Virus record (IMG/VR): IMGVR_UViG_3300009285_003312
Coordinates: 1 to 62,301 of that record
Length of the DNA stretch: 62,301 nucleotides
DNA from: a virus
Strand: one strand, 5' to 3'
In this document: piece after piece, positions 15,639 to 43,346 of the stretch
Layout: every line of letters begins with the position of its first letter
How positions within the stretch are numbered: position 1 is the stretch's first letter
Notes under the pieces: generated by a model
Database searches by the model: none
Seen by the model: only the letters and a program-made list of their open reading frames with translations
Told to the model about the DNA's origin: nothing
Program-made: the position numbers and the translations under genes

Positions 15639-15666
15639 GTTTCTCCGCGGACTCAATATATAACTA

Positions 15667-16185: not shown

Positions 16186-17113
16186 TTACCCCCCTTGCGC
16201 AGGCGACCCATGAGTAATGATTAATATACGCTTTTCTCTTTTGCCAGATTTTAAATTCAGCCAACATAGCATCCTCTAGTTCTGTAATATTACCCAGGGT
16301 AAATTTCCTCGCATAGTGGGGGTCAACATCTGAGAATACTGGTAGGTCTGAGTGGATAATATGGCAACCAGCAGACATGGCCTCCCAAAGCGGAAGCGAC
16401 CAACCTTCTCGATTGGCATTTTTAATAAAAACATTATTCTTGGCATAAAGAGCATTTAAGTCAATCTTCTCAAGGTCTAAGTCAATGATATTAATCATCG
16501 GTAATTCTCCGTGATCTCTCCCAGCTCTTACCAGTTCTAGAGTTCTCACATATTCATCATAGTCTATATTATAGGACTTAATTGTTAATATGGTATCGTG
16601 TGCATTTTTACCATAAAAAGAATTGTAATATGCCGATATAGTATCTTTCCAATTTTCCCTACTCCCCTCTTTCCCAAGGGAATCATGTAGCGTGAGAATG
16701 GAGAACTTATATGGCCTGCATCCAGAAAAATCCTTAGCATTTACTCCAAGCGGAACCACATATATCGGCACAGTTACCCCATTATCAATAAATACTTTTC
16801 TATTCCATTCTGTTGGAGTAATAACGGCATCACACTTGTTTAGTAGTTCTGGCCAGTCTGATTTCCACCCCGTAAAGGTTTCTGTCTCATGCATCGTAAA
16901 GAATATATTCTTTTTTCCCTCTGCAAACTCTGGATATTTTATATAGTGGGGAGGCCTAATCCATAGCGCTACATCTTCTGTGTCTCCCTTCCTTGGGAAG
17001 AATATAACCTCATGCCCTAGCGCACGCAGGTTAGCCTCTAGTTGATATGCCATGAGCCCATATCCACTCTTTAGCTGGCGCCTCTGCCCAGCGTCGAAAA
17101 TCCTTACGCGCAT
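16163..17113 (-). CDS. Family 4 (group 1) glycosyltransferase
   Basis: The ATG at 17113 has GGGAGAAG 8 bases upstream and gives 316 aa. Evidence includes LKSGYGLMAYQLEANLRALG (N-terminal acceptor domain), FFTMHETETF, CDAVITPTEWNRKVF, VPIYVVPLGVN at the domain boundary, and NREGWSLPLWEAMSAGCHII. The last is the GT4 E-x7-E region that holds the donor nucleotide. The start lies 10 bases inside the end of an HNH gene, which therefore supplies its ribosome site. Confidence 0.85.
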   Translation of the reverse strand: MRVRIFDAGQRRQLKSGYGLMAYQLEANLRALGHEVIFFPRKGDTEDVALWIRPPHYIKYPEFAEGKKNIFFTMHETETFTGWKSDWPELLNKCDAVITPTEWNRKVFIDNGVTVPIYVVPLGVNAKDFSGCRPYKFSILTLHDSLGKEGSRENWKDTISAYYNSFYGKNAHDTILTIKSYNIDYDEYVRTLELVRAGRDHGELPMINIIDLDLEKIDLNALYAKNNVFIKNANREGWSLPLWEAMSAGCHIIHSDLPVFSDVDPHYARKFTLGNITELEDAMLAEFKIWQKRKAYINHYSWVACARGVNEIITKA

Positions 17114-17511
17114 ATTATTGCTTCTCCCTTCTTTGTTTTCCACCCCCTATTTACAATATCATCAACTTGATGATGACATTTAGAACACAGTTTAATCCAA
17201 TCGTTTATATCTTTTTTGTATTCTCCAGAAACATTAGCCCATTCAAATCTTTTGCTTACACCCTGACGCCTACATTGTTCACACTTATCAGCTTTCCCAT
17301 AATGATATTTTATCCAATCATGAATTGCCATATATCCAGCCTCGTCCCCCCTCCACGCGAAATGGTTTATCCCAGTCATTGCTGGTCTTTTTTTCCCAGC
17401 CCAATAACCATGATTCCCCTTCTTGAAAGCACTCTTTGGGATTATCCCAGTTTTGACTCCCTTGTTCCAGGGTATCATTCCTTTTTGAAAAACACCAGTG
17501 GTTTTTTCCAT
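17104..17511 (-). CDS. HNH endonuclease inside glycosyltransferase operon
   Basis: This 135-residue protein starts with FQKGMIPWNKGVKTGIIPKS, the NUMOD3/GIY-YIG-associated DNA-binding motif. It then has NHFAWRGDEAGYMAIHDWIK and a compact HNH-like zinc site CEQCRRQ...CSKCHHQVDD. An ATG with GAGGAA upstream begins 2 bases after the stop of one glycosyltransferase and ends within the start of the next. It is a free-standing homing endonuclease inserted between two genes without breaking either. Confidence 0.8.
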   Translation of the reverse strand: MEKTTGVFQKGMIPWNKGVKTGIIPKSAFKKGNHGYWAGKKRPAMTGINHFAWRGDEAGYMAIHDWIKYHYGKADKCEQCRRQGVSKRFEWANVSGEYKKDINDWIKLCSKCHHQVDDIVNRGWKTKKGEAIICA

Positions 17512-17513
17512 TG

Positions 17514-18158
17514 TTAATTCCTCGCAGCCCTTAATGCTCCAAACTTTTCTCTAGCAATCTTTCTTTCCTCTTGTTCGTTAATCTCCCCTGCTTCTTGAGC
17601 CTTTTTAACACTGGCTCCGCCGTAGTGCCACACATATGCGTCCTTGCGCCAATATTGCTTATATCCCTTCTCGGTTACCCTATCAATAAACGCAACCTCT
17701 TGACCATAGAACCCGAAGTCTTCTGGAAATCCACCAACTTCTTCCCATATCTTTTTGGAGAAGAAAATACAAAATCCACTTAAACACCATCCTGGATATA
17801 GCGCCCCAAAGTCAACAATCTCCGTATGATTTGACTTGGGCTCTTTACCCTGGGCGTTCTTAGACCCCTGTGGGCAGGTAGTTGGACCTACAACTCCAGC
17901 ATCATTATACATTTTGAATACTTCCATTAACTTACTCTCCCATCCTGGCTCTACAAGAGTATCGGTATTGAGGAGACAGATATACTCTGCCTCAGACTTC
18001 TTAATCAACTTATTCCATAGCTTACCCAGGTTCTCATTTTTTGGATAATTATCCCATACGGTTAGGTGATATGGGGAAAAGGTCTGACCCATCACAGAAG
18101 CCACACAGGCGTTTTCAAACTGTGGTGCATTATATTTAACAAGGATAATCTCAATCAT
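17514..18158 (-). CDS. Family 2 glycosyltransferase
   Basis: This 214-residue protein shows EIILVKYNAPQFENACVASV at the N terminus, a KNENLGKLWNKLIKK loop, YICLLNTDTLVEPGWES with the NTD donor motif near residue 63, and LSGFCIFFSKKIWEEVGGF plus GFYGQEVAFIDRV. These are the acceptor and ED-like motifs of rhamnosyl/galactosyl-type GT2 enzymes. It overlaps the preceding fusion gene by 4 bases. Donor and acceptor are unknown. Confidence 0.85.
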   Translation of the reverse strand: MIEIILVKYNAPQFENACVASVMGQTFSPYHLTVWDNYPKNENLGKLWNKLIKKSEAEYICLLNTDTLVEPGWESKLMEVFKMYNDAGVVGPTTCPQGSKNAQGKEPKSNHTEIVDFGALYPGWCLSGFCIFFSKKIWEEVGGFPEDFGFYGQEVAFIDRVTEKGYKQYWRKDAYVWHYGGASVKKAQEAGEINEQEERKIAREKFGALRAARN

Positions 18159-19339
18159 TTAGCTCTCCCTTCCTGTCTAAGTTTTGCATAAATCTCCCTA
18201 TCTCGCTGTTGAGTGACTCCTCCCTCTACTCCAGCCGCCTTTACGCTTTGAGCCATCTCATGGAAAATCTTTACCGATTGAACTTTTTGGAAAATATCTT
18301 TTACTCGTTCATCATACTCGCTGTCTGACGAATACATAACCATCTCTTCCATTAAATATCCATATTTTTTAGTAACCTCTCTCGGGGCACACCAGAATGG
18401 ACCAGCTAACCTGTCAATATATTGGTTGGCGATGAGAGGTGAAGTAACTTTTCCTTCGATACAAAGATCTCTTAGGTTTCCTTTGAGTAAAAAAGTATCA
18501 GAATTAACTATGGCAACATATTCCCCTTTTGCAAGTTTCCATCCAAAATTTACAGTTTTAGTAAATCCCTTATTCTTTCTAACATATATATAGGTATTGG
18601 CTATCTTTTGTAATCTAGGAGAATACATCTGCCCATCTTCTATAATAATAAGTTCATCTACAAATTTTCTATAAGAACAGGCTGCCGTGTATGCCAATTC
18701 TTCTAAATCCTTATTCTGAGTATAGGTTGGAATAACCATGGACAGATATGGGTTTCTATCCTTTTTATTACCATACGTTACAGTTTTTTTATGACATTCT
18801 ACGCAAAGGACTCTACCATTATCTAGATTCCATAAGTCGTCACATATTTCAGCATCTTCCAAACAGGTTATCTGGTACTTACTAAGCAAGTTACTAAATG
18901 ACCATATATGATCAACCTGTAGATTTTTACTACTTCCACACCAGTGGCATCTATAGTCATCAATCTCTAATACTTTTTTTTGCCAATCTTTATATACTTG
19001 CATTTTCCTAATACTCATAGATAAGGGTGTAATCCCACCTTTCCAAAAACCATTTAATTTCCCCTTCTTGGAATTGCTCAACTTCTCTCGTAGCTTTTTC
19101 GTGATAACTCTATTTTGAATTGGGTTTTTACCATTTTTCCATCTTAACTTTAGTTTCTCGGCAATATCGGGTCTTTTTTTACCTCTCCAAGGGGCTATTC
19201 CAGTTTTAATCCCCTTATTCCATGGAATCTGCCCAGATTTACCCTTATTTCCCGTACCGTTTTTGTTCCCCATTAGAGAATTACTAATTTTATTTTTTGT
19301 TTCGCTTGACATTGGTTTTCGTTTTATCGCTTCTTTCAT
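18155..19339 (-). CDS. HNH endonuclease fused in frame to a family 2 glycosyltransferase
   Basis: The 394-residue frame has two unrelated parts. Residues 1-195 are a homing endonuclease: NUMOD3-like repeats (MSSETKNKISNSLMGNKNG, GQIPWNKGIKTGIAPWRGKK), KLNGFWKGGITPLS, and an HNH core CHWCGSS, LQVDHIW, NGRVLCVECHKKT. Residues about 200-394 are a GT2 domain (LSMVIPTYTQNKD, LIIIEDGQ, NKGFTKTVNFGWKL, IVNSDTF) paralogous to the gene at 14375-14986. There is no stop between them. An internal ATG at 18739, at the natural start of the GT domain, has only a weak ribosome site. The insertion seems to have replaced the original start. Either a true fusion or two products are possible. Confidence 0.85.
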   Translation of the reverse strand: MKEAIKRKPMSSETKNKISNSLMGNKNGTGNKGKSGQIPWNKGIKTGIAPWRGKKRPDIAEKLKLRWKNGKNPIQNRVITKKLREKLSNSKKGKLNGFWKGGITPLSMSIRKMQVYKDWQKKVLEIDDYRCHWCGSSKNLQVDHIWSFSNLLSKYQITCLEDAEICDDLWNLDNGRVLCVECHKKTVTYGNKKDRNPYLSMVIPTYTQNKDLEELAYTAACSYRKFVDELIIIEDGQMYSPRLQKIANTYIYVRKNKGFTKTVNFGWKLAKGEYVAIVNSDTFLLKGNLRDLCIEGKVTSPLIANQYIDRLAGPFWCAPREVTKKYGYLMEEMVMYSSDSEYDERVKDIFQKVQSVKIFHEMAQSVKAAGVEGGVTQQRDREIYAKLRQEGRAK

Positions 19340-20154
19340 AGAATATCCATAATCCCCGATAGTAATTTACTTTTATAGTAATGGTGGTCGTATACAGGTC
19401 CATCTAATAATCCTTGTAATTTTGGATTATCATCAGCTATCTCAACTGTCTTCCCACACGCTCTCGCCTCAAGCACCGCCCTCTCTCCACCCCCATTGAT
19501 TTCAGCGGGAATGAAAACTTTATTGGCACAGTTGTAGAAGTTGCGTAGTTTTGATGGATATACCATATCTGATACGGCTACCCCCGCAAGTAATAGGTTA
19601 GAAATAATATCAAACGACTCAGACCAGTTATCCTTTTGGATTTCTCCAACAACCATCTTAGTTGTCCCTGGTTTAGAGATGATTGATTCATGTCTCTTCC
19701 AGTATGAGAAAGACCCAACTGAAATATAGTCCCAGATTACTGGAGCCTCTTTCCATGGGTTGAAGATGTCAGTGTTGACTCCAAAGGCATGTAACGCGTG
19801 TCTGTGCCCCTTTAACTGATCCTCATACCAATTTGTCTCATAGAATAAAACATCATATAAGTTCATGTTCTCTGGTGGGAATGCATTGCCAGCAATACAT
19901 AGGCCCACCTTAGTTTTTGGACTCTTCTGCTTAAGTTCCCTAAATGACAACTCTACTGGGCTATTAAAAGCTCCCCATCCAAGGATAAAGTCAAAGTCCT
20001 TTATAGGACCTATCTTCATATTCTTGCCCCTGTCCTGGAGATTGAATTTAGTCAGCTCATAATCTTCCTTGAGCAACTCAAGGGCTGCCCAAAGACCGTC
20101 TCTCAATAAGTTTGGGTACTTATGGTCGTATACGAACAGGACTTTTGGTTTCAT
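19336..20154 (-). CDS. Family 4-like glycosyltransferase
   Basis: This 272-residue protein begins KVLFVYDHKYPNLLRDGLW. It has KTKVGLCIAGNAFPPENMN and DVLFYETNWYEDQLKG in the N-terminal half, a boundary AFGVNTDIFNPW, YISVGSFSYWKRHE, and a C-terminal GGGERAVLEARACGKTVEIADDNP. The last equals the E-x-E donor motif of GT-B group 1 enzymes. It overlaps the downstream fusion gene by 4 bases. Confidence 0.8.
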   Translation of the reverse strand: MKPKVLFVYDHKYPNLLRDGLWAALELLKEDYELTKFNLQDRGKNMKIGPIKDFDFILGWGAFNSPVELSFRELKQKSPKTKVGLCIAGNAFPPENMNLYDVLFYETNWYEDQLKGHRHALHAFGVNTDIFNPWKEAPVIWDYISVGSFSYWKRHESIISKPGTTKMVVGEIQKDNWSESFDIISNLLLAGVAVSDMVYPSKLRNFYNCANKVFIPAEINGGGERAVLEARACGKTVEIADDNPKLQGLLDGPVYDHHYYKSKLLSGIMDIL

Positions 20155-20576
20155 TATTTTTTAATTTTTGCTTTCTTAGCTTCCCTTGCCTTGGCAAGAG
20201 CGGCTAGTCTTTGTGCTTTAATGGCTTCTGCTTTATTCTGTTTCTCAACTTCTAATTTAACATCATCCTTTAGAGTCTCAGCCGCACTTGGCGCTGCCGC
20301 CTCGGGCTTAACCTCAGCAACTGGAGCTTTATTTGATTTGAGATGACTTGAAATGTGATCATTAAATACCACTAATCCGTCCTGCTGTGCAAAACAAATT
20401 GGGCAGGTAAAAACCTGTCCTGGTAACTCTAATTCATTCCCAAACTTGTCTACCATAACGGCAAGACCAGTCCTAACTAGATTTTGATAATCAGTAACCT
20501 CAAGAGTATCTCCAATCCCTAGACTTGGATTCTCTGATGGGGACCATGACTCATTCACTTTTTTTAATAGTGTCAT
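20154..20576 (-). CDS. C2H2-type zinc-finger protein with Lys/Ala-rich tail
   Basis: This 140-residue protein has one clear zinc-binding site at about 58-80 (CPICFAQ, then FNDHISSHLKSN; Cys2His2 spacing). An Ala/Pro/Glu linker and a C-terminal Lys/Ala-rich helix (ALAKAREAKKAKIKK) follow. The ATG has an AAGGAGGTG site upstream. The tail could bind DNA or RNA. The gene sits with two other small genes between glycosyltransferases, and its role is unknown. Confidence 0.6.
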   Translation of the reverse strand: MTLLKKVNESWSPSENPSLGIGDTLEVTDYQNLVRTGLAVMVDKFGNELELPGQVFTCPICFAQQDGLVVFNDHISSHLKSNKAPVAEVKPEAAAPSAAETLKDDVKLEVEKQNKAEAIKAQRLAALAKAREAKKAKIKK

Positions 20577-20733
20577 TGGTTTTCACCTCCTTATTTTTCT
20601 GCGATACATCTAATTGTGAGGCCCGCAATAGCCCCTTCCAGACAAGAGCCGCGTGTTCACGAGACATAAAGTCCATGTCAACAGCTAGTGCTAACGAGTT
20701 AACTACATAATATAGTTCTTCTGTAACTTCCAT
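20551..20733 (-). CDS. Small helical protein, unknown
   Basis: This 60-residue protein is not recognised. It is mostly helical (MEVTEELYYVVNSLALAVD, REHAALVWKGLLRASQ) with a charged tail. It overlaps the next gene by 26 bases and begins one base after the upstream stop, so it is coupled to both. Confidence 0.5.
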   Translation of the reverse strand: MEVTEELYYVVNSLALAVDMDFMSREHAALVWKGLLRASQLDVSQKNKEVKTNDTIKKSE

Positions 20734-20734
20734 T

Positions 20735-20935
20735 TTATAACTCCAAAGTAGATTCTCTACTTGGTCTATCGGCTGGACCAGAGTTAGTCCCGCGGTATCT
20801 AGTCATATATCTAGCTTGTGCAGCACATACCCTAGAACAATACTGAGGCTTTTTATCCCTGCTAGAGCGAACAATTATCTCTTTCCCACAGGCTGGGCAA
20901 TTACCAATAGTGCGACCAAATTGATCAATTTCCAT
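20735..20935 (-). CDS. Small zinc-ribbon protein
   Basis: This 66-residue protein has a four-cysteine zinc site (CPACGKEI, then YCSRVCAAQ) at residues about 14-38 and a basic/polar tail. Such MYM/FCS-like ribbons are common in phage HNH proteins, but no nuclease domain follows. It might be a leftover HNH N terminus or a small regulatory protein. It overlaps the large glycosyltransferase gene by 11 bases. Confidence 0.55.
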   Translation of the reverse strand: MEIDQFGRTIGNCPACGKEIIVRSSRDKKPQYCSRVCAAQARYMTRYRGTNSGPADRPSRESTLEL

Positions 20936-23429
20936 TTGTTACCTCCTCGGCAATCATAAGTTCTGGATTTTGTAAGTTAATCCTAAATAATTTATCCCAT
21001 TCAAATGCAATTTTATCCCAAGTGAAGTGTTCCTGTGCCCATTTTATCATTGGCTCTCTTATTAATTCTTGTTCTTTATCGTTATTTAACATCTTTACTA
21101 TCTGTTCAAGATATTCTTTTTGTCCCTCTTCTGTTGTAATATCCATATCAACCTTGATGCCATTTTTAACCGTCTCTTTAAGGGCGGCGTAGTTTGTAAC
21201 CACTGGGATCGCCCCTAGCGCTTGTGCCTTCATTCCAGTGATACAGGAAATCTCTGTAAAGTCAGTTGGGTATGCCCATATTCCAGCTGACATCATAGCT
21301 GTCTCAAGTTCATCGTGCCCAACCCTTCCGTGGTAAGTAATGCCAGGCTGTTTCATCATATCAATGATCATCCTCTTCCACTTCATTCTTCCTGGGTTAC
21401 CCTTGTGAATTGCGTCAAATACATCAAACCCATAATAGACATCCAATAATGCTTCTGGAACGGCCTTAATAATCTCTGGCCACATTTTAAGTAGATAGAT
21501 AAGTCCTCTATCTGGTGATGATGAATAGATCATTCTCTTATTATTTCTAACAATTTTTGGATCAACCTCTAGTTTTTTAATTCCATTCCCAGACAAGAAT
21601 ACCTTCTTGGCTGGCATTGGCTCAAACTTACCATCGTTATTAAACATTAGTTGTTCTTTGTGGTATTCAGATAAAACCGCCACCTTGTTGATTTGGTCTA
21701 GTCTACTTTTGGTAAATTCTGGATTATTTGGAATATCATGCATCCACAACATTGTGAACTTAGACTTAGGATTAATATCAACAAATCCTACTCCTCTCCA
21801 AAGAATTAGTGTATTAAATGAATCATTTACATTAATCTCGTGCCACATCTTATATTGGACACCATCATAGTCTCCAGCCCCCTGTAGTGGATTTGCATAA
21901 ACAGTAACCTTCCAGCCAAGGGATTTTAGTTCTTGGGAAAGATATACAACGGCCTCCTCTGATCCACCAAGCCCAGTCTTAATTGAGTTGGGAGTCCATG
22001 GTTCAAACCCAGGTCCACAAAGGATAGCAATCTCATCGCTCCCCCACTGCTTTGGCAATAAGAATCTATGCTTCATCTCAGATACAAACTTTTCTTGTTG
22101 TAGTCCATTTGGAATAGCTTTAACAAGATGTTCTAGTTTTTCTGGACTAGCCTTCTCTGCTTCAAGATATTTACCCAAGAAAACAATACACTGAGAGGCT
22201 TTATTATCTGATGTTGCCTGAGCCATCATACCTATCCTATTTTTTAAATCTTCTCTATCTGGGAACATCTCATATATTTTTTCAGCATCCTTTTTGGCGT
22301 GTTCATATCTACCCTCTCTTATCGCAATTTGAAAATCAACCTCAAGGGCTCGGTATTTCATGTCTCTAGGAGTTGTAATCAGACTTGTGTCTGGCATATC
22401 AATGTTTGTTGCAACATTAAGCCAGTGTTTAGCCTTCTTCATGTCTCCAGATAAACTATAGGCCATTGCTAAGTCAATATAATAATTTGGGAACTGGGGA
22501 GCCTCATCTATTGCGGCTTGCATGGCTTGTATTGCTACTTCTGTATTCTTTGAGATAAGTGCAATTTCTCCAACATGAGACCACGCTATCGCCCTCTCTT
22601 CTGGCCAACCAGACCCCTCACTATAACCAGGAGAACCTGGTTTACCAAATCCTTCTAGATACTCATGGAATAATGTAAGTGCTAAGTCAAACCAAATCTT
22701 TTTCTTCTCTGGAACCTCTGCCATCTTACCCATATCAAAGTAGGCCTTGGCCAAATAAATAAGTGTCCTTGGATCTTGGTGGTTTTCTTTCCTTGCCTGA
22801 TTCTCCAATATTTCTATATTTCTTGTAATATTTTTATCATATCTTTCTTGCTCGCTTAGGTGAATCACCCGACAATCATTAAGTGCGATTTTAATAACAT
22901 TCTCACTCCTCTGTTCAATAAGGGTTTCGTGCAACATCCCAATCCACTTAAATGTCCCATCATTACGGATGATTCTTTCCCTCTTATGTTTAACCAAAAT
23001 CTCTTTTACATTGCCATCTTTATCCAACTGGACATTATATAGATAATCAAAGAACACGGCAGCTACTCCATTCTTCTCAGCATATACTGCAGCCTCATAT
23101 AATTTCTCTCCACCATCAATCACATCATCGGCATCCTGCCAATATATGTAGACATCTTCTCCATGGGGGACCTGATCCATCGCAAAGTTTCTAGCGGCAG
23201 CGAAATCCAATACCCACTGGAAAGTAGACACTTTCGTATCTATCTTCTTAAGGTACTTTATTAGAGGATTTGTGTCTTTTGGAGCTTTGTCAGTATATGT
23301 GACTGTAACGAAAACTCCGTCAACATACTGTCTAACAGATTCAATGGAACGTTTAACCAATTCGAGTGGCTCATCCTGTTTTAGGATCATGCTCAAATAT
23401 AGTTTAATTTTATCGTTTTTTACTGTCAT
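20925..23429 (-). CDS. Trifunctional-looking GT2-TPR-GT4 glycosyltransferase
   Basis: This 834-residue protein is the first and largest gene of the glycan operon. Residues about 8-200 form a GT2 module (LYLSMILKQDEPLELVKRSI, DFAAARNFAMDQ, YIYWQDADDVI, WIGMLHETLIEQ), the SunS/WaaE-like type that often works on proteins. Residues about 215-400 are TPR-like helix pairs (TLIYLAKAYFDMGKM, NYYIDLAMAYSLSGDMKKA). Residues about 455-820 form a GT4 module with KTGLGGSEEAVVYLS, YSSSPDRGLIYLLKMWPEI and EISCITGMKAQALGAIPVV. Two transferase domains joined by TPRs suggest processive or two-step glycosylation, maybe of a phage structural protein. Confidence 0.85.
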   Translation of the reverse strand: MTVKNDKIKLYLSMILKQDEPLELVKRSIESVRQYVDGVFVTVTYTDKAPKDTNPLIKYLKKIDTKVSTFQWVLDFAAARNFAMDQVPHGEDVYIYWQDADDVIDGGEKLYEAAVYAEKNGVAAVFFDYLYNVQLDKDGNVKEILVKHKRERIIRNDGTFKWIGMLHETLIEQRSENVIKIALNDCRVIHLSEQERYDKNITRNIEILENQARKENHQDPRTLIYLAKAYFDMGKMAEVPEKKKIWFDLALTLFHEYLEGFGKPGSPGYSEGSGWPEERAIAWSHVGEIALISKNTEVAIQAMQAAIDEAPQFPNYYIDLAMAYSLSGDMKKAKHWLNVATNIDMPDTSLITTPRDMKYRALEVDFQIAIREGRYEHAKKDAEKIYEMFPDREDLKNRIGMMAQATSDNKASQCIVFLGKYLEAEKASPEKLEHLVKAIPNGLQQEKFVSEMKHRFLLPKQWGSDEIAILCGPGFEPWTPNSIKTGLGGSEEAVVYLSQELKSLGWKVTVYANPLQGAGDYDGVQYKMWHEINVNDSFNTLILWRGVGFVDINPKSKFTMLWMHDIPNNPEFTKSRLDQINKVAVLSEYHKEQLMFNNDGKFEPMPAKKVFLSGNGIKKLEVDPKIVRNNKRMIYSSSPDRGLIYLLKMWPEIIKAVPEALLDVYYGFDVFDAIHKGNPGRMKWKRMIIDMMKQPGITYHGRVGHDELETAMMSAGIWAYPTDFTEISCITGMKAQALGAIPVVTNYAALKETVKNGIKVDMDITTEEGQKEYLEQIVKMLNNDKEQELIREPMIKWAQEHFTWDKIAFEWDKLFRINLQNPELMIAEEVTNGN

Positions 23430-24718: not shown

Positions 24719-27121
24719 TTAACCGTTTTGGTTGTATCCAGTTCTCTTAAGGTCAGCTTTCTCATTGAGTACTTCTAAAGTAAACTCAGTGATCCAGTGT
24801 CCACGATCAGCATCTCCAACTTTGCTAAGTTCCTCAAACATTGGTTTGTCTAAGTAAGCAACTTTGTGGAGCTCTTCACGAAGACCGTAAACGGTTGTAG
24901 AACCAGCACTGTTGCGCACATCTCTGTGATGCATAATGCGGTGTGAACCGACTGCGGAATCGTAAACGAGAACGTCTTTGATAAGGCGTCTATCTGAAGC
25001 GTTGATGTAACGAGTTGAGTTTCCTCCAAATCCAGCAATTGCTTGCTTGATTTTAACGGTACAAAGAAGCATGTCAAATACCTTGTCTGCTGAGACGGTA
25101 GTGTATGCATCACTTGCCATGTCATTAAGTTCTGCCTCAGAGTACGATGTACCTGAGTTACGAGCTGTAACAACGGAAGTAATGAATGCATCAAGACCGA
25201 CCATGTAGCGAGCAACACCTGAAGCACCAGACGCAGTTGTTGAGTTCAAAAGGTTGTACTCCATCTTAAGTTTAAGCTGGCGTAGTCCATCTGATTTCTG
25301 GAAAGCGTAAGGGTCCCCAACTGCAGCAACGTTTACACGGCGCTCAGTGCGAGATACTTGGATAGCCTGATTGAGAATGTGAGTCTTGTTGGTTACGCGG
25401 CTAGGAGCTGTAAGGTCGCCAAAAGTGGTGTCCGCTCCTTCAATAACGGCTGTTGTTGAAGTAGGACGAGAAATGTTATAAGTTAACCACTCGTGGAGTG
25501 TTCCTCTCGCGGTACTAGTACCGAAAAGCGTAAGCAATGGTGTCTCCAGTATTGTTATCGCGAGATGTCTATTTCTCGCTTCTCTATATTTCTATAGAGC
25601 TCAGGTCATATCTTCTCTTTCGAGTGAGGGCGCTAGTGAGCATTATTGTTTCCGCAGCTCTGACCGTCGAACCTTCTAAAAGCCTTTCGTAATCTTTTAG
25701 CTAGGCTGCTGATAACCCTTTCTGGGCTTCCCAGCAATTCACCCCCTATTTATTTCTGTAACCCTGAATGACATTTTGGACATAATATAGAAGCATTTTC
25801 TGGATCAAATCTTAAAGATGGATATGTGGCAAATGGCTTTATGTGATGGACCTGTAAATAAATTTTATTTACACAGTATTCACAAATACTACCATCTTTT
25901 ACACCACATGCCTCACATTTATTTTGTTTAAATTTCTTTGCAGCTAGTCTCCAACTTTTATATTGACTTGATTGTCTGATTAAATGTCGTCATTATATGA
26001 CTCTCCTCTAATCTCAATACCAAGGCGTTGGTTTTTATACTTACATTCTTTAGAACAAAATTTTCCTTCTCCATTTTTTATAGCCGATGGTTTCTTGTAG
26101 AATTTATTTCCACATTCTCCACAGACACAATTAGGATCTGGTTTATGATTTTTTCTAGATTCTTGATAACAAATAAATGAACAAAATAGATATTTTCTAC
26201 GTTTATCTTTTTTAATTATTTCAAAAAGCTCATTACAGTTACTACACGCTATTGTCATAGTCATAGTATACTGTAACCTATATTATATTGTCAATGTGCA
26301 TTTCAGTTTTATAGCCAGACAATTTATTTATCTGGTGAGACATCGGCTAAAACATCCATGAGATCTTCTCTACGAGAAGCATCGTCATAGGTAATTACTT
26401 GATTGTTACTACCCCTTTTGGGGTGGTTAGGATATTTCTACCTAACTCTTATGCTCTCACATAAGAACGGACTATATCTTATATTTAATAAATTAAATAT
26501 CAAAGCGTGTAGTCTCTGAGGATTCTGTCCCTCGGTATTTTGAGTTAAGTAAATTTAATTTATTTTTATACTCTAATACTTTTTCTGAATAAGTCTCTCC
26601 ATCTCTCTTATTTGTTTTAAATAAGATTCGGTAGTTACAAAAATCATTTAAGACTTTAATCCTTTCTAGTTTCCCGCTTGGGAATTTTAAAAGGAAATCT
26701 GTTAGTCTCTTAATTCTTTTTATACCACCCACCTCTATCCTGTAACCTATTGCTTTATCTCTTCCATGTAGTTTAGGTTGCCATTTAAGGTGTTTTATAT
26801 CTAGATTATTCAGTATGTCAGCTATTTTATCAATAATATATGGATTATTATTATAAATACTTATTCTAGGCCTATATATTGTATAGTTTTTGTATTTATA
26901 ACCAGAAGCTATTTGATAAGATCCTTCTCCATCAATTATTCCGAGTAGATAGCCTACATCGAAAAACAGTCTTTCCTGCTGATTGCCCATTATAATATCT
27001 TGAATATTTTTACTCATATATGACATGTATTATATGTCACAATATTAAGTAATGCAAGTTTTAGGGGTTTCCAGCATTTGGCTTTGTTTAAAGGGAACTA
27101 TTTTGTTAATCCCCATGTCAT
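24719..27121 (-). CDS. Major capsid protein (DUF5309/SU10 type), split by two group I introns
   Basis: The coding parts are 27121-27109 (13 bases), 26412-26330 (83 bases) and 25546-24719 (828 bases). Together they encode 307 aa starting MTWGCSNNQVITYDD. The start has GGGAGGTG upstream. The joined sequence reads through REDLMDVLADVSPD-ETPLLTLFGTSTARG, then HEWLTYNISRP and VIEGADTTF, RRVNVAAVGDPYAFQ. This is the conserved N-terminal and E-loop region of DUF5309 (SU10 major head protein) capsids with the HK97 fold. Without splicing, the last exon lacks its first 31 residues. Exon borders are set by reading frame and intron pairing and should be confirmed by cDNA. Expected location is the capsid shell. 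Confidence 0.85.
25547..26329 (-). ncRNA. Group I intron 2 in capsid gene (783 bases)
   Basis: The 5' exon end CCAGAT pairs with the intron guide GTCTGG about 10 bases inside the intron, with the expected U-G pair at the splice point (P1). The core lies at the 3' side. A GCTGGGAAGCCC P4-like block sits at 25735-25724. P7 is formed by GGTCA (25665-25661) and TGACC (25608-25604), the latter in the conserved AAGATATGACC context. The intron ends in G (25547). Splicing joins codon GAT to GAG in phase 0. A frameshifted HNH gene lies between P1 and the core. Each element was read by eye; no folding program was used. Confidence 0.8.
25750..26264 (-). pseudogene. HNH endonuclease of intron 2, frameshifted
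   Basis: The first frame (26264-25980, 94 aa) has three zinc-type Cys pairs (CSNCNEL, CGECGNK, FCSKECK) and stops after ESYNDDI. Immediately, in the -1 frame (25989-25750), a full HNH core continues: WRLAAKKFKQNKCEACG, YLQVHHIKPFATY and ILCPKCHSGLQK. Joined, they give a normal size of about 170 aa. One indel near 25980-25990 explains the break; there is no good slippery site. It is probably a decayed endonuclease, or a sequencing error. Confidence 0.75.
26413..27108 (-). ncRNA. Group I intron 1 in capsid gene (696 bases)
   Basis: The 5' exon end GGGGAT can pair with the guide region GTTCCC just inside the intron, giving a U-G at the splice site. An AATGCTGGAAACCCC block (P4-P5 region) follows. 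Near the 3' end, CAGAGACTACACGC (P7 5' strand, GACTA at 26514-26510) pairs with TAGTC (26474-26470) in the hallmark AAGATATAGTCC. A CCCC-AAAA-GGGG hairpin closes the intron, which ends in G at 26413. Splicing joins T of codon 5 to GT, restoring the frame. The LAGLIDADG gene occupies a loop, and its last codons overlap the P7 strand. Confidence 0.8.
26493..27026 (-). CDS. LAGLIDADG homing endonuclease of intron 1
   Basis: This 177-residue single-motif LAGLIDADG protein has YLLGIIDGEGSY (the LAGLIDADG helix, catalytic Asp/Glu at IDGEG) around residues 28-39. It has a beta-saddle pattern (YTIYRPRISIYNNNPYII, GYRIEVGGIKRIKRLTDFL). Such enzymes act as dimers and cut intron-less alleles, spreading the intron. 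The last 13 codons (RGTESSETTRFDI) overlap the intron core, so protein and ribozyme share sequence. No strong ribosome site is visible; starts at 27026 or 27017 are possible. Confidence 0.85.
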   Translation of the reverse strand: MSYMSKNIQDIIMGNQQERLFFDVGYLLGIIDGEGSYQIASGYKYKNYTIYRPRISIYNNNPYIIDKIADILNNLDIKHLKWQPKLHGRDKAIGYRIEVGGIKRIKRLTDFLLKFPSGKLERIKVLNDFCNYRILFKTNKRDGETYSEKVLEYKNKLNLLNSKYRGTESSETTRFDI

Positions 27122-28924: not shown

Positions 28925-31078
28925 TTATTCTCCTGGTCCATATTTATTAATTAATTGATTATAAAATTTAGGATTTGGCTCACCAAGGCTCTGTTGTGGG
29001 GACGCCTGTGTTTGTTGTGGAGGCATAACCCTAGACATTTGGTTTGCTCCAGTACCCTCATTTATTTGAGGAGAAGCTCCGTCACCCTGTCCGCCAAGCA
29101 TCTTTGCCATTTCACCCATCTGGTCTCCACCTGGTGCCCCTAGTGCTCCTGGTGCTTGTGCCTGTGGTGCGCTCTCAAAGTATTTCTCAGCATCATTAAA
29201 TCCAAGATCCTCAAGCCAAGTAACAAATAGCTCTTTAAATTTAGGCTTAACTCCCTCTTGTTGAAGAAGGGCGATAATATTTGGATTAGATACAAGTAGT
29301 GAGACGGCAGTTTGGCGAGCCTGTTTGCGCTCTTCATCCGCAGTAACGGTCATAGACTCAACATCAATGCTGAAGTCAAATTGTCCTTTAATATCTTCTG
29401 GCTCAACATAGATAGTTGCGCCTTCTCCCTCTTCAATCTTAAGCTTAGGAGAAATCTCTGGCTTCTCCTTAGTACCAATATTAACTGGATATTTTGGAGT
29501 AGCAAATTGAGTAGCATCAATACCAGCACTGGCTGATTCAATGGCGCTTCCGCCAAATGCCATCTCATTCTGTGAGTTCATTAGGTCTTGTGCCTCATCA
29601 CCAATTTCCATCTGATCAAGTCCCTTGGTCTGGAAATATTTGATTGCATCTTTACCAACAATTCTTATAATATAATGTTGTTTTTCTGGATCTGAAAAAA
29701 GAAGTAGTTGGTTCATACTGTGCCAGAGCATTAATTGTCGCTCCATGGCTCCAGAAAGCATTAGTTGATTGTAGTTATCTCTAGCATTGCGTTGAATTTG
29801 TAGTGCCTTAACTTCGGTGGCAGTCTTATCTCCCTGCATTGGTTGAATATTAGAAACTCCAAGAGATGATTCTCCAAGTGCATTCATCATCGCAGAGACC
29901 AACACAGAGTAGGTGTTGTTGAAGAATTGTGCGGCGTTTGAACGAGATTCAACAAGACGGAAGTCGGTCATTGGATTGTTCATAATCCAGCGAGCGCCCT
30001 TACCCCATTCTAGTGTATGTTGTCTAACTCCTGGGCCTATAGCAATTGGAGAATAAAGGTTCTGGTTGATCTCATCGACATACTGACAAAGAAGAGCGTT
30101 GATGGCTTTTTGAAGACCCTTAACTGGCTCAATCTCTGAAAGTCCATATAGATCATCATCAATAACATAATACCGAAGCATTACGATTGGCAACTCATTA
30201 TTCATGTATGGATTTGCGATGTCCCTAAGCACAACTCCATGTTTAGGTGCAAAAGTGATCCAACGATCACGGCGATATTCAGTGATTATTTCAACTGTCT
30301 TAAATACAATGTCTTTCCCCACTGGATCAGTCTCTAGATGAGAAATCTGTCTATTGCGAGAAATCCAGTTTGAAGAACGAGTGTCTCCTCCGCCACCACT
30401 TGTAGAGTCACTTCCAATTGCCTGTCTTAGAACGCTAAGGTTTTTATATACTGGCTTCTTCCTTGCGTGGTCATTAACGCGCTCCAATTCTTGGAATGTG
30501 ACATACTGACGGACCTGGAACCAATTACAGTTTTCGATTGATGTACCAGATAAATCATGAGCAACATCTCTGTTATTAAGGACCTCCATCTCTGGTCCAT
30601 CAAACACAACTCTACCATCTTTATCAACTTCATATCGCCATTTATTAATTGCAAATGCAGCCCCATACTTACGGGTATTAATATCCATGAGAGCCCATTT
30701 TGAGAGCATGGTTCCGCCATTATTGGCAACATCCCACTGATAGTCCAATAGTGAATTATTGATTTTAGCCGAAACGGCATCAGCCCCTTCTCGGGGAATT
30801 AATTTGGCCTTTGGTTTATTAGCAATTAGGCGGGAAGTCTTTTCAAAAATGAAAGTAAAAATACGAGGGTCAAAAAGAAGGGCATCATATGGCCACTTAT
30901 TCTCATCAATATAAGACCTAAATAGTTCGTCTGCCTCATCAAATGAAATAGATCCCACGCGACCAGTCCCAGTAGTTCTTTTGTCTGTTTCATCAAATCC
31001 AAGATCTGCGTGATTCTTGACTTCGTGAAATATTTGTTCTTCTGCCCTTTTTGTGGGAGATAAGTCTGTTATTGCCAT
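28925..31078 (-). CDS. Portal protein
   Basis: This 717-residue protein matches P22-like portals in length and segments. The N-terminal wing has WPYDALLFDPRIFTFIFEK and TSRLIANKPKAKLIPR. The core has YYVIDDDLYGLSEIEPVKGLQKAINAL followed by MNNPMTDFRLV. The stem/crown region has SSLGVSNIQPMQGDKTATEVKALQ and MERQLMLWHSMNQLLL. A Gln/Pro/Gly-rich tail ends it. Twelve copies would form the DNA channel at one capsid vertex. It lies between large terminase and scaffold, as expected. A weak promoter precedes it, and its ribosome site is poor. Confidence 0.85.
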   Translation of the reverse strand: MAITDLSPTKRAEEQIFHEVKNHADLGFDETDKRTTGTGRVGSISFDEADELFRSYIDENKWPYDALLFDPRIFTFIFEKTSRLIANKPKAKLIPREGADAVSAKINNSLLDYQWDVANNGGTMLSKWALMDINTRKYGAAFAINKWRYEVDKDGRVVFDGPEMEVLNNRDVAHDLSGTSIENCNWFQVRQYVTFQELERVNDHARKKPVYKNLSVLRQAIGSDSTSGGGGDTRSSNWISRNRQISHLETDPVGKDIVFKTVEIITEYRRDRWITFAPKHGVVLRDIANPYMNNELPIVMLRYYVIDDDLYGLSEIEPVKGLQKAINALLCQYVDEINQNLYSPIAIGPGVRQHTLEWGKGARWIMNNPMTDFRLVESRSNAAQFFNNTYSVLVSAMMNALGESSLGVSNIQPMQGDKTATEVKALQIQRNARDNYNQLMLSGAMERQLMLWHSMNQLLLFSDPEKQHYIIRIVGKDAIKYFQTKGLDQMEIGDEAQDLMNSQNEMAFGGSAIESASAGIDATQFATPKYPVNIGTKEKPEISPKLKIEEGEGATIYVEPEDIKGQFDFSIDVESMTVTADEERKQARQTAVSLLVSNPNIIALLQQEGVKPKFKELFVTWLEDLGFNDAEKYFESAPQAQAPGALGAPGGDQMGEMAKMLGGQGDGASPQINEGTGANQMSRVMPPQQTQASPQQSLGEPNPKFYNQLINKYGPGE

Positions 31079-31156: not shown

Positions 31157-31480
31157 CTATTGACCGATCTTTGGTCTGATTAATAATTCATTTAATTTTG
31201 TAGATTCTTCTCCCCTAATAAATGTCACAACCCCATCTTCAATCTGAATTGTCACCATGCCATATTTACTTCCCATAGCAATATTATTTGCATGCCTAAT
31301 AGTTTGAAAAATAACTAATGGATTAAATTTAACTTTATCAATCATATCCATAAGGACATAAATATCTGGGCGCAGGAGGCGAATGGTCTCCTTAAAAACA
31401 TATTCATTATTATTAACCTCTTTTGAATACTGGCTCTCTAGTTCTTCCTCAACCTTTACTGCCGATTTTTTCTTTGCCAT
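31157..31480 (-). CDS. Packaging-region protein, unknown
   Basis: This 107-residue protein has a lysine-rich, acidic N terminus (AKKKSAVKVEEELESQ) and a compact domain with LLRPDIYVLMDMIDKVKFNPLVI and MVTIQIEDGVVTFIRG. It overlaps the terminase nuclease gene by 1 base and is followed by the portal. It is not recognised. Confidence 0.55.
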   Translation of the reverse strand: MAKKKSAVKVEEELESQYSKEVNNNEYVFKETIRLLRPDIYVLMDMIDKVKFNPLVIFQTIRHANNIAMGSKYGMVTIQIEDGVVTFIRGEESTKLNELLIRPKIGQ

Positions 31481-32166
31481 TATTTAAATCTCCACTTAGC
31501 GCGGTGTTCTTTTAATGCTTCTGGATTATATTCACCAAGGTCGTTATCTGGTGTTAATTGAGCAATTTGCCAGGCTCCCGCAGTCGCCATCACAATATCG
31601 TCATGTTTATTTTGTGATGCTTGAGCTCTACCCTTTACTATAACAAACGATTTTAATTGTTTGATTTGTTCTGGATCATATAGTTTAAATTTTTCCTGGT
31701 TGATACCCAGGGCAAGATCATCTAGCATTTTTCTACGAGTACCCTGGAGTTCTCCTCCAGAAATATGGCCAGTTGTCATCCACCCAATATCCCCCCCCTC
31801 GTGCGGGGCCATGGAAGTAAAGTCAACCATGCGGAACATGTCTGGGTAGTTTAGTTGTTGTAGAACAAAGATGGTGGCCTGACCAGTGTTGCGCTCAACG
31901 GCAAGCTTAGGAAAGTTGTTGGTTCTAACTTGAATATACTTTCCTAAGTTATATAGCTCATGCCCAAATTGGGATGACTCCATCACTTCGTTAAATACGA
32001 TTGGAAAATCAAAGTGTTTCTTGGAGAAGGCGACAGCGGCACAGAAGTCCTGAGAGTCAGCTGGATCAGCAAACATAACAAGTTGCTCATTAACATCTAG
32101 GTCGCGATAAACACGAGTCTGGTAATGGATGGTTGGGTCATATTTATTTATAATGTCGTTTTTCAT
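31480..32166 (-). CDS. terL: Large terminase, C-terminal nuclease part (split gene)
   Basis: This 228-residue protein has only the RNase H-like nuclease domain of a large terminase. It shows LVMFADPADSQDFCAAVAF (first metal Asp), VERNTGQATIFVLQQL (Glu region), and KHDDIVMATAGAWQIA (last Asp pair). GWMTTGHISGGELQGTRR matches the region before the flap. The ATPase half is a separate gene at 32709-33620, with an HNH gene between. This part has its own ATG and a GGAGG site lying in the end of the HNH gene (ATGA overlap). The two parts likely work together in DNA packaging. Confidence 0.85.
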   Translation of the reverse strand: MKNDIINKYDPTIHYQTRVYRDLDVNEQLVMFADPADSQDFCAAVAFSKKHFDFPIVFNEVMESSQFGHELYNLGKYIQVRTNNFPKLAVERNTGQATIFVLQQLNYPDMFRMVDFTSMAPHEGGDIGWMTTGHISGGELQGTRRKMLDDLALGINQEKFKLYDPEQIKQLKSFVIVKGRAQASQNKHDDIVMATAGAWQIAQLTPDNDLGEYNPEALKEHRAKWRFK

Positions 32167-32699
32167 TTTTTACTTTTACCTCCATATGTGGTAGTTTTCA
32201 TATGACATTTTTTACAAAGAGTAACTCCATTATTTATATCCCACAGTAATAAACAACTAATTGCCTGAGTTAAAGTTTTAATATCATTATCATTAATAAT
32301 CCTAATATATGGACATATATGGTCTGCGTGCAATTCTCCTCCAACCACAGAACAGTGTTGACAAGTATGGCTATCTCTACTAAAAACTTCTTTTCTCCAT
32401 TTTATATATTCTGGCAACTTCATAACTTTTTGTCTAAAGGTTCTATAGATTCCCCCAGACCAAGATGGGTTTTTATTCCCCCTTGGGAAAATATAGGCAT
32501 TATTTGGCTTACCACCACCAGCCTTAAACTCTGTCTCTGGGCTATTATGAATTCCTTTTCTTTTTTTAGACCACATCTCTTTAGTTTCCAAGCTATGTTT
32601 TTTGCCGAGCATACCACTCCGCTTAAGTCTTTTAGCTCTTATCTCGGGATTTTGCCACTCTTCCCTCCTTAATTGACTTCTAGTTTTTATCTCTACCAT
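32163..32699 (-). CDS. HNH endonuclease interrupting large terminase
   Basis: This 178-residue protein has NUMOD/zinc-less N-terminal repeats (SQLRREEWQNPEIRAKRLK, KRKGIHNSPETEFKAGG) and an NPSWSGGIYRTFR link. Its HNH core is CQHCSVV, LHADHICPYI, NGVTLCKKCHMKT. Its ATG has GAGGAAA upstream and begins 9 bases after the ATPase-half stop. Its end overlaps the nuclease-half start and supplies that half's ribosome site. It is a free-standing homing endonuclease placed within a single essential gene. Confidence 0.85.
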   Translation of the reverse strand: MVEIKTRSQLRREEWQNPEIRAKRLKRSGMLGKKHSLETKEMWSKKRKGIHNSPETEFKAGGGKPNNAYIFPRGNKNPSWSGGIYRTFRQKVMKLPEYIKWRKEVFSRDSHTCQHCSVVGGELHADHICPYIRIINDNDIKTLTQAISCLLLWDINNGVTLCKKCHMKTTTYGGKSKK

Positions 32700-32708
32700 A
32701 TTATTTCC

Positions 32709-33620
32709 TCAACAAAAATGTCCATCGGGAGCGATCCTCCCATACTCGGTTGGCTCAGCCTTCTCATCCAACATTTTATTTAATACAAGCGCGTTAAAAT
32801 ACGGAGAACCAGAGGTAATAAAGGCTTCTTCTGGAGTATATGGATACTCCTGTCCAGCCATTTTTTCACTTGGGAACTCTTTCCTCTTTTCTTCTACCCA
32901 CTCTGCACTATAGAACTCTTGCCATCCAAAAAACCTGGGTTTATAAATACTCCTACCCTCACTGGCTCTCTCCCATTCTGCGTGATAATAGTTACCCTCG
33001 CCATTAGCGGTAGATTCAATAAAGATCATTCCCTTGCCCTGTGGCACCTGTTGGGCGGTAGCGAGAATCATTTCGTGGGCCTTAAGCATCTCGGTGTCTT
33101 GATAGAAAGCAGCCTCAGAGAAGTGAACGTTGCGGGCAGAACCACCACGACCACCAACCTTGGCGCCAGCGGTACCAATATAGAAAGTCGCATCATTGGT
33201 AGAGTTTGTAATCATGCCCTTATTATCAGATGCCAACCAGCTCTTAAGAGTTTCTTCTGTGTATATTTTTTTCTCTTCCTCAGCCTTCTTCTGGAGATAA
33301 CTCTCTAGGTAAAAACGGACTTTCTTAAATAGCAACTCCGTAGAGTCCCTGCGGTGAGAGATACAGATAGAAACAGAGTATGGGCGCATTATAAAGTCCG
33401 CAGTAAAGAGGGCTAAGATAAATGACGAGAATCCTTGTTGTCGAGCTTTTAAAATAATTTCTCGAATACCTTCTTGATTAGGATACTCCTGGTTAAGCAT
33501 CTCTAAATATTTTGCCTGTACCTTATTTAAAACAAAGGGGACTGGGACCTGATTTTCTCGGTCAATAACCATGAAATAATGTTCAATAAATTTTTTATAA
33601 TCAATCTTGATCGGCTTCAT
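32709..33620 (-). CDS. terL: Large terminase, N-terminal ATPase part (split gene)
   Basis: The product is about 303 aa (ATG at 33620; 33632 is an alternative). It carries the terminase ATPase: IREIILKARQQGFSSFILALF (deviant Walker A), ISHRRDSTELLFKKVRFYL, GKVGGRGGSARNVHFSEAAF-type Walker B with catalytic Glu, and IFIESTANGEGNYYH (coupling motif III). It stops at YGRIAPDGHFC, exactly where the linker to the nuclease would begin. The protein is normal for an ATPase half but too short for a full TerL (450-500 aa). Confidence 0.85.
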   Translation of the reverse strand: MKPIKIDYKKFIEHYFMVIDRENQVPVPFVLNKVQAKYLEMLNQEYPNQEGIREIILKARQQGFSSFILALFTADFIMRPYSVSICISHRRDSTELLFKKVRFYLESYLQKKAEEEKKIYTEETLKSWLASDNKGMITNSTNDATFYIGTAGAKVGGRGGSARNVHFSEAAFYQDTEMLKAHEMILATAQQVPQGKGMIFIESTANGEGNYYHAEWERASEGRSIYKPRFFGWQEFYSAEWVEEKRKEFPSEKMAGQEYPYTPEEAFITSGSPYFNALVLNKMLDEKAEPTEYGRIAPDGHFC

Positions 33621-34080
33621 CTTCTTCTCCATCTCCCTCTATTAACCTTTGAAGCTCTGGATCAATTTCATCTTCCTTAACCTCTGCCATAATTGCCTCT
33701 GTAATTTCTCCCTCTTCTATAAAGCCCTTAAAATCATCTCTCCTATTCTCAGCCGTGAGAATATTAACATTGACTCCCCCAGTAGATGCCTTACTCATAA
33801 AATCCTCATATCCAGCTATTTTCATGAGCCTATCCCACCATTCCGTATTTTTAGAATTCTCTGCCTTCTCTAGTGCTATCTCTAACAATCTTCCATAAGT
33901 GGCACCCTTCTTCTCGAGGAACAATCTAGCAGTAGCCTTTGCTTCCTTTAAATATCTACTAGCAATTACCGAGGCGCTTGCTCTATTAGTAATACCAAAG
34001 GCATCGGTAACAGCTTGGGTGGCATTACCTCCATTTTTTAAAAACTCCTTTAGAAATACATCAACCTTCTCAACCTGCAT
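33601..34080 (-). CDS. terS: Small terminase subunit
   Basis: From the ATG at 34080 (GGGGAAG upstream) the product is 159 aa. The N-terminal part has VDVFLKEFLKNGGNATQAVTD followed by ASASVIASRYLKEAKA, a helix-turn-helix of the type used by small terminases to bind pac/cos DNA. A central helical region and a highly acidic C terminus (EEGEITEAIMAEVKEDEIDP, GDGEEDEADQD) would contact the large subunit. It overlaps the ATPase gene by 20 bases, the normal order terS-terL. Confidence 0.8.
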   Translation of the reverse strand: MQVEKVDVFLKEFLKNGGNATQAVTDAFGITNRASASVIASRYLKEAKATARLFLEKKGATYGRLLEIALEKAENSKNTEWWDRLMKIAGYEDFMSKASTGGVNVNILTAENRRDDFKGFIEEGEITEAIMAEVKEDEIDPELQRLIEGDGEEDEADQD

Positions 34081-34133
34081 AATCTTCCCCGTACGATTTT
34101 CCCTAACATTTAACGATCTAGACCTTATGTCTC

Positions 34134-34499
34134 TCATGTTAAACTTTGTCTGAGTGGAATAGTGGCGCTTGGTTTAGGGGGTGACCACTTGGAGATAGTA
34201 AAGGTGTCAGAACCTCTCTCTATACTCTGATTACCAAATTGAGCCACCCTATCTAATAACTCGTCTAGTACTGGCTCATCGCTTCCAAGAAACATTTCTC
34301 TCCTGACTTTCCCACAATGATTACACTCCCATATTGTAGTAGTAATACCAAACAAAGCCTTCTCCAGCGTATCTCCGCTAAGTATCTGCAATATACCTAT
34401 TTCAAGCCTTGGCCTAGCATAGGTCTTCCCCGTTAGGGTCCAGGTATGATCTTCTGATTTCTCTTTTTTACTAAAAATCTTAAGCAGGTTTATCCCCAT
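34134..34499 (-). CDS. Zn-ribbon-like protein, unknown
   Basis: The ATG at 34499 has GGAGG 8 bases upstream; the product is 121 aa. It contains one CxxC pair (WECNHCGKVRREMFLG) and is otherwise unrecognised. It overlaps the small ribbon-helix-helix gene by 20 bases and precedes terS, so it is transcribed with the packaging genes. Confidence 0.55.
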   Translation of the reverse strand: MGINLLKIFSKKEKSEDHTWTLTGKTYARPRLEIGILQILSGDTLEKALFGITTTIWECNHCGKVRREMFLGSDEPVLDELLDRVAQFGNQSIERGSDTFTISKWSPPKPSATIPLRQSLT

Positions 34500-34744: not shown

Positions 34745-35203
34745 ATGCCGATAAGACAATATATTGTTAATTGCTATAAATGTAAAATAGAACAACTTAG
34801 ACCGACTACCAGGAAGTTCTTATGTGGATCTTGTAAACTTCCAAATAAAATTTATCCTAGATCTTTTTATTATAATAAAAAGAAGTCTCTTGCGAGAGAT
34901 CTAGGTAGATGCCAATGTTGTGGTAAAAAAGAAGAATTAGTGACCCACCACCTCGATTGCAACAAGCAAAATAGTAGTATTAGTAACCTAATTACTCTTT
35001 GTAAGAGTTGCCATTTATCTCTACATCATAGATATACTAAAGCTCAACTAAGATGTAGTATTATTTATAATTTATTTCCAGATCTTTTTAAGTGGGCAGA
35101 AAAAAGAAAAAAAGCTAGAGAGGATGGAATTAAAAAATTACAAGAAATGATTCCTAGGAAACAACCAAAATATTTTATCAATACTAAGTATAAATCAAAA
35201 TAA
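34745..35203 (+). CDS. HNH endonuclease with own promoter
   Basis: This 152-residue protein has a zinc ribbon (CYKCKIEQ...LCGSCKL) and an HNH core: ARDLGRCQCCGKK, LVTHHLDCNKQN, SISNLITLCKSCHLSLHHR. A charged helical tail follows. It is coded against the surrounding operon, directly divergent from the packaging promoter, and overlaps the opposite gene at its 3' end by 9 bases. It is a free-standing homing endonuclease near terS. Confidence 0.85.
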   Translation: MPIRQYIVNCYKCKIEQLRPTTRKFLCGSCKLPNKIYPRSFYYNKKKSLARDLGRCQCCGKKEELVTHHLDCNKQNSSISNLITLCKSCHLSLHHRYTKAQLRCSIIYNLFPDLFKWAEKRKKAREDGIKKLQEMIPRKQPKYFINTKYKSK

Positions 35204-42140: not shown

Positions 42141-43346
42141 TCATCCTTTCACCACCGCAAGCGGGGTTAGCTCTACTTTAATATCTACTAGGTCTGTTTG
42201 ATTAGCCATGACGGTAGCAATATCTTTATAAGATCCTGGCGCCTCATCTAGGTCGCGGACATTTCTAACCGAGTGGATAACCCCCTCTAGTTTCTTCTGT
42301 TCATCTTCTAGGTTAAGTGTGCGCTGAGCTTCTTTGCGACCCATCTTACGCCCCGCCCCATGTGAGCATGACTCAAAGGAATCTAGGTTACCCTTGCCCT
42401 CAACAATATAACTTTTACTCCCCTGAGATCCAGGGATAATCCCGATAGTGCCCTTGCGCGCGAGCGTAGCACCCTTGCGATGCACCCAGACATTCTGACC
42501 AAAGTGGTTTTCAAGGGCGGCATAGTTATGGGCGATATTAATCATCTCCTCAAACTCTACCCCATATTGTCCACCAAACTTATCTTCGATGGTATCTGCC
42601 ATAATCATCTTAATGCGGTCCATCATTAGTTTGCGGTTGGCGAGAGCAAACTCGACGCAGTAGTTCATTTCGGCGATATAGGCTTGTCCCTCTTCGCTGT
42701 TGGTGGGCAGGAAGGCGAGTTCCCACTTTTTATCTACCCCAGACATCCATTTGTCGTTTAACTCTACAGCTAGTTTGTTGTAGTAGTTGGCCACAGTAAA
42801 ACCTAGGTTGCGAGAACCAGAGTGAATCATTAACCAGATGTGTCCATCTGATCCTTTTTGGATTTCTATAAAGTGGTTTCCTCCTCCAAGTGTTCCTACT
42901 TGAGATTGAGCCTTTGTAAACTCCTGAAAGATAATTGGCATCTCTGTTGACCAATTGTTCCGACCCTCACATGGCACTGGTAACATCTCTCTTGGTTGGG
43001 TTGTTTTGTGGTGGGCAAAACCAACTGGTATAGCTTCGCGAATCTTACCCATGATGGTTTTAAGTTCTTCGGTACTAATTTCTGTAAGAGTGGTCTTGAC
43101 GGCACACATACCACAACCAATGTCTACGCCAACAAGAGAAGGAACTATTACTCCTTTTGTTGGGACAACAGATCCTATACTAGCTCCTATTCCCAAATGT
43201 CCATCTGGCATTAAGGCAACGTGGTGATGTAAAAATGGAAGAGAACTAACAATCTTCATTTGTTCTATACATTGTTCTTCGATGGTATCTTCACCAGAAA
43301 ATACCTTTAATGGAACCTTCATATCATTGGTTTTAATTGTATACAT
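42141..43346 (-). CDS. rtcB: RNA-splicing ligase RtcB
   Basis: This 401-residue protein has the RtcB landmarks: HHHVALMPDGHLGIGASIGS, VGVDIGCGMCAVKT (metal-binding Asp and Cys), GTLGGGNHFIEIQ, MIHSGSRNLGFTV and SCSHGAGRKMGRKEA, whose His is guanylylated. It joins RNA 2',3'-cyclic phosphate (3'-P) to 5'-OH ends with GTP and Mn2+. In phages it is taken to repair tRNAs cut by host nucleases. It is about the length of bacterial RtcB. A second ligase type lies at 44561-45193. Confidence 0.95.
   Translation of the reverse strand: MYTIKTNDMKVPLKVFSGEDTIEEQCIEQMKIVSSLPFLHHHVALMPDGHLGIGASIGSVVPTKGVIVPSLVGVDIGCGMCAVKTTLTEISTEELKTIMGKIREAIPVGFAHHKTTQPREMLPVPCEGRNNWSTEMPIIFQEFTKAQSQVGTLGGGNHFIEIQKGSDGHIWLMIHSGSRNLGFTVANYYNKLAVELNDKWMSGVDKKWELAFLPTNSEEGQAYIAEMNYCVEFALANRKLMMDRIKMIMADTIEDKFGGQYGVEFEEMINIAHNYAALENHFGQNVWVHRKGATLARKGTIGIIPGSQGSKSYIVEGKGNLDSFESCSHGAGRKMGRKEAQRTLNLEDEQKKLEGVIHSVRNVRDLDEAPGSYKDIATVMANQTDLVDIKVELTPLAVVKG

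Follow-up and report, generated by a model that had tools for sequence, protein, structure and literature searches.

The window, as we call the whole stretch of DNA that was analysed, is a virus record of 62,301 bases in which the terminase genes lie on the minus strand. The ATPase half of the large terminase subunit (TerL) is encoded at 32709..33632 (307 aa) and matches the phrog_2 terminase large subunit family with an E value of 1e-13. It is followed by an HNH endonuclease gene at 32163..32699 (178 aa; phrog_8446 HNH endonuclease, E 8e-14), whose product also matches phrog_119 and phrog_589, and Pfam HNH only below the cut-off, and then by the nuclease half of TerL, with an RNase H fold, at 31480..32166 (228 aa; phrog_38 terminase large subunit, E 1e-4). 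A candidate gene for the small terminase subunit (TerS) at 33601..34137, also on the minus strand, overlaps the 5' start of the ATPase half. On the other side, 3' of the nuclease half and beyond a small gene, the minus strand encodes an SU10-type portal protein at 28925..31078 (Pfam SU10_portal, E 1.8e-7; phrog_1216 portal). The order terS - terL - portal is therefore present, the TerS match to the phrog_51 terminase small subunit being weak (E 0.0016). The initial annotation had described three ORFs at 31480-33620; the ORFs were found to be real and on the minus strand, although the ATPase half extends to 33632, so that the range given was slightly short. The stop codon of the HNH gene and the start codon of the nuclease gene overlap as ATGA (32163..32166), and a GGAGG stands upstream of the nuclease ATG, in agreement with the Shine-Dalgarno sequence that had been placed inside the HNH gene. 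Six-frame profile searches with both halves gave one place each, so that within the window, to which statements on a second terL apply, neither a further TerL piece nor a complete terL is present elsewhere.

The ATPase half contains a deviant Walker A motif (LKARQQGFSS), a Walker B-like stretch (NVHFSE) and the motif ESTA, and so possesses the Walker A, the Walker B carboxylate and the motif III of a packaging ATPase domain; its residues K57, R59, G62, S64, E168, E201 and T203 are invariant across 32 lineages. The AlphaFold model of the single chain had a pLDDT of 87.6 and matched the ATPase domain of T4 gp17 (2o0j) with an E value of 4e-11. The nuclease half has the acidic triad of an RNase H/RuvC-like nuclease, with D34, E91 and D190 invariant across the same number of lineages, and its single-chain AlphaFold model (pLDDT 83.6) matched the G20c TerL nuclease (5m1o, E 1e-7) and also T4 gp17. 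In their order and type, these three residues fit D401/E458/D542, the nuclease triad of T4 gp17 (PMC9958956). A sequence search of PDB chains with both halves gave nothing useful, apart from a weak match to the RB49 TerL nuclease (E 0.58), and the folds of both halves are for this reason predicted ones. Both halves can be modelled as whole TerL domains and look functional. The TerL proteins of T4 (gp17), G20c/P74-26, RB49 and HK97 consist of the same two domains, with matching acidic residues, but in these the domains are joined in one hinged polypeptide, whereas the chain of the window is cut within the hinge. In each of the 33 split representatives, as in the window, two ORFs were found in place of one, and the proposal that TerL is made here as two polypeptides is well supported.

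Relatives were found by scanning viral contigs with each half; when the scan was widened by means of an ATPase profile, 54 loci were obtained. Those that are split all stem from metagenome contigs of uncultured phages. The closest relative without the HNH gene is L002/L008 (L002, L008 and L043 are the same contig), in which the nuclease half is 84% identical to that of the window. The HNH gene had been proposed to have turned one gene into two, and a search for relatives with an uninterrupted terL had been suggested; however, terL of this relative already consists of two ORFs. The ATPase ORF ends ...GGACACTTTTTATGA, the nuclease ORF begins at the ATG contained in this sequence, and in L008 the stop and the start overlap as ATGA. 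The loci L009-L014 and L015-L017, as well as many more distant ones, lack the HNH gene too and are split at the same linker. Since relatives without HNH are cut at the same site, the HNH gene did not cause the split.

Compared with the empty site of L008 (GGACACTTTTT|ATGAAGAATGAC), the window contains about 547 bp of cleanly inserted sequence on the minus strand (32167..32713) between GGACATTTTT and ATGAAAAACGAC, the left border being uncertain by a few bases. The insertion is precise relative to the empty site, and the HNH ORF occupies nearly all of the inserted bases. The ATPase gene of the window obtained a new stop codon within the insert (TGT TGA), and the HNH gene terminates on the ATGA at which the two terminase genes meet in L008. 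The start codon of the second half predates the HNH gene, which only took over the role of the upstream overlapping partner. No intein is present at the window junction, since the ATPase ORF closes with a stop codon and HNH has its own start. In L002 the ATPase half (5983-7941) carries a LAGLIDADG-type intein whose insertion point falls at the Walker B stretch (RNVHF^SEAAF); from this and the HNH gene of the window, mobile elements have struck the gene pair at least twice.

The ATPase tail and the nuclease head around the break together comprise 47-81 aa (median 59) in the split loci. The hinge of intact L021, the TerL of Roseobacter phage CRP-7, and that of L072 comprise 61 aa each, and those of other intact TerL proteins 35 to 92. 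The similar lengths place the break within the interdomain hinge, with little or nothing lost. Where the halves abut, the genes overlap as ATGA or by 8-23 bases, or are separated by up to a few bases, the nuclease being read in the +1 frame in 16 loci and in the -1 frame in 9, where the starts are at 2441 in L054 and at 3989 in L064. At other loci the halves are not adjacent. Small ORFs separate them in L041, L051 and L070, in L048 a small ORF is accompanied by a methionine aminopeptidase-like gene, and in L044 the nuclease gene lies about 3.4 kb past the ATPase stop. Judged from the translated sequences, the methionine aminopeptidase-like gene of L048 occupies 3881-4684, and a gene of this kind is also found in L044, downstream of the ATPase half (5893-6690). 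It is very unlikely that such a pattern arose from errors of assembly or sequencing.

A tree of 55 ATPase domains, taken from the split representatives, from TerL of isolated phages and from matches in genome collections, separated 33 split rows from 22 single-ORF rows by one branch with support of 100/99, and the split or intact trait is explained on this tree by one change. The nuclease tree agreed, with the same support of 100/99 for the split clade. The distances in the two trees were correlated with r = 0.967 over 32 lineages, compared with a maximum of 0.30 in 2000 shuffled permutations, indicating that the two halves have been inherited together. The bacterial genome collection contained only distant TerL proteins, all encoded by single ORFs except in L088. 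This locus, a low-coverage MAG contig outside the split clade, was scored as intact in the tree, as its apparent break is probably an assembly frameshift. With the root fixed by the choice of outgroup, the tree is most simply read as a single fission event from which all split loci descend. The split clade is much older than the insertion of HNH.

The HNH gene was found at the terL junction in the window and in L007 only, i.e. in 2 of the 33 representative split loci. The L007 protein is located at the same site and is 68% identical to that of the window. A search for further relatives of HNH in viral contigs gave only three weak matches, L083-L085, in a scan that is incomplete, as it missed L007. 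We consider it very probable that in this uncultured clade terL has been two genes ancestrally and that HNH was inserted later at the stop/start boundary. Its product is probably a free-standing homing endonuclease, and the gene a late, probably selfish passenger that settled at an existing gene boundary.

Several other explanations of the locus have to be weighed against this. For nrdA of phage Aeh1, a homing endonuclease gene is taken to be the cause of the split, and the initial annotation drew on this likeness for terL. The window does resemble nrdA in having a free-standing endonuclease gene between the halves of an essential gene, an arrangement shared by L007. The comparison fails at the cause, however: the endonuclease is taken to have produced the split in nrdA, while in the window the split predates the endonuclease gene, and the near relatives without it (L002/L008, L009-L017), where an intact gene would be expected in the Aeh1 case, are divided. 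It is therefore highly unlikely that an intact terL was divided by HNH into a cooperating pair: the close L002/L008 is split without it, the entire clade is split, and HNH would have to be placed at the root of the clade and to have disappeared from nearly all of its members, leaving no trace. That HNH lies in a group I intron, or in an otherwise spliced insert, so that a single TerL is made, is extremely improbable. Endonuclease-bearing group I introns are known in terL (PMC10448857, PMC11878797, PMC12363816), but no intron matched the window at E <= 1, the Rfam search of the window returning one tRNA only, in line with the absence of intron features reported earlier. The insert is almost entirely HNH ORF, and its exact removal would merely recreate the two-ORF layout of L008. 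A group I intron with the HNH gene was discarded as a candidate, as no ribozyme core was recognised in the insert by Rfam.

It could also be argued that TerL is fused throughout the clade by a programmed ribosomal frameshift and that the insertion of HNH broke this in the window. The L008 junction, CAT TTT TTA TGA, has a classical slippery heptamer (T TTT TTA) close ahead of the stop codon, and its nuclease is read in the -1 frame. We nevertheless consider such a frameshift very improbable, since the nuclease frame is +1 more often than -1 at the abutting loci, no conserved slippery sequence was found among the split-locus junctions, and in a number of lineages the halves are separated by other ORFs. 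The intervening ORFs in L041, L048, L051 and L070 and the spacing in L044 mean that no frameshift can fuse the halves there, and a conserved programmed frameshift is ruled out by the variable frames and sequences at the junction. A rare fused product may, judging from the heptamer of L008, be made through frameshifting in single genomes. Finally, HNH could function in packaging, as HK97 gp74 does, and have been kept beside the terminase for this reason, which would be compatible with an older split. In HK97, an HNH nuclease encoded beside the terminase acts with terminase in cos cleavage (PMC10448857). The gene has been retained in the window and L007, and from dN of 0.26 and dS of 1.32, the latter near saturation, it seems to be maintained, dN being below dS. 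Against this, conservation beside the terminase does not extend past these two loci, HNH was not seen at the junction in 31 of the 33 split loci, the gene evolves more rapidly than the two halves of the terminase, for which dN is 0.08-0.12, and relatives of HNH occur at other places in the window genome. A role in packaging is very improbable.

Returning to terL as two ancestral genes with a later HNH insertion, one of the closest known counterparts is the TerL of phage CRP-7 (MK613349), the only isolated phage matching both halves by tblastn, which is encoded by a single ORF, unlike the window. Annotators of actinobacteriophages name the ATPase and nuclease domains of TerL separately, and because of these names other split TerL proteins may already be known. 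An ancestrally two-gene terminase lineage was not reported in the open-access literature searched, where reports of split terminases were intron cases only; an endonuclease-split reductase is mentioned there as well (PMC10448857). The terL genes of ICP1 (PMC10448857), Bastillevirinae (PMC11878797) and Jug phages (PMC12363816) are interrupted by introns and spliced. Like the window terL, they consist of several ORFs, often with endonuclease genes, but their ORFs are joined by RNA splicing, whereas the window has no intron. The packaging ATPase of the phi29 type retains an inactive, vestigial nuclease domain in its chain (PMC9410871). Like the ATPase half of the window, it is a packaging ATPase whose chain has no active nuclease domain; unlike phages of this type, the window clade encodes a nuclease with an intact active site separately. 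What stands out here is a terminase that is TerL by fold, sequence and gene order and yet is not encoded as one chain.

In the ancestor of the clade, the large terminase was very probably already encoded by neighbouring genes for the packaging ATPase and for the RNase H-fold nuclease, with the chain broken inside the interdomain hinge. The two polypeptides would probably be made by coupled translation at the stop/start overlap, and would most likely join without a covalent bond into one portal-bound motor, a non-covalent interface standing in for the hinge. HNH very probably entered a recent ancestor of the window and L007 at this ready-made, harmless stop/start boundary, where the insert gave the ATPase gene its new stop and the HNH gene came to overlap the nuclease start by ATGA; HNH neither made the split nor needs to be spliced out. 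We infer that the halves assemble into a complex, and likewise its stoichiometry and the lack of a fused product. In T4, the hinge between the ATPase and nuclease domains is reported to be essential for translocation and packaging, and domains separated at the hinge keep their ATPase and nuclease activities but lose DNA translocation (PMC9958956). The clade would therefore need either a strong interface or a translocation step carried out by the ATPase only. We somewhat favour a motor of separate, non-covalently associated ATPase and nuclease subunits, in which the nuclease perhaps joins only for the initiating and terminating cuts and the covalent hinge is dispensable.

TerL is among the most universal proteins of tailed phages and a standard marker gene, and pipelines that expect one TerL may score phages with a split terL as having a broken gene. 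A long-lived lineage with a cut hinge offers a natural way to ask if a link between the ATPase and nuclease domains is required, and of what kind, and if the nuclease takes part in translocation or does no more than cut. The locus also indicates that an endonuclease gene between the halves of a gene need not have caused their split.

Other endonuclease-like genes are present in the window, one of the LAGLIDADG type and two further ones of the HNH type (26493-27026 on the minus strand, 34745-35203 on the plus strand and 2330-3094 on the minus strand); one of these HNH ORFs lies upstream of the terminase genes and is encoded on the opposite strand. A 394-aa ORF at 18155-19339 (minus strand) has an HNH domain fused in frame to the N-terminus of a glycosyltransferase-like protein. 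This domain belongs to the same family as the terL HNH, with 35% identity over 103 aa, and a relative of the glycosyltransferase-like protein without HNH (41% identity) is encoded at 14375-14986. By their translated sequences, a long series of glycosyltransferase-like and sugar-metabolism ORFs extends over 8232-23429 on the minus strand, which also encodes an apparent GroEL-like chaperonin (60252-61883) and an apparent RtcB-like RNA ligase (42141-43346).
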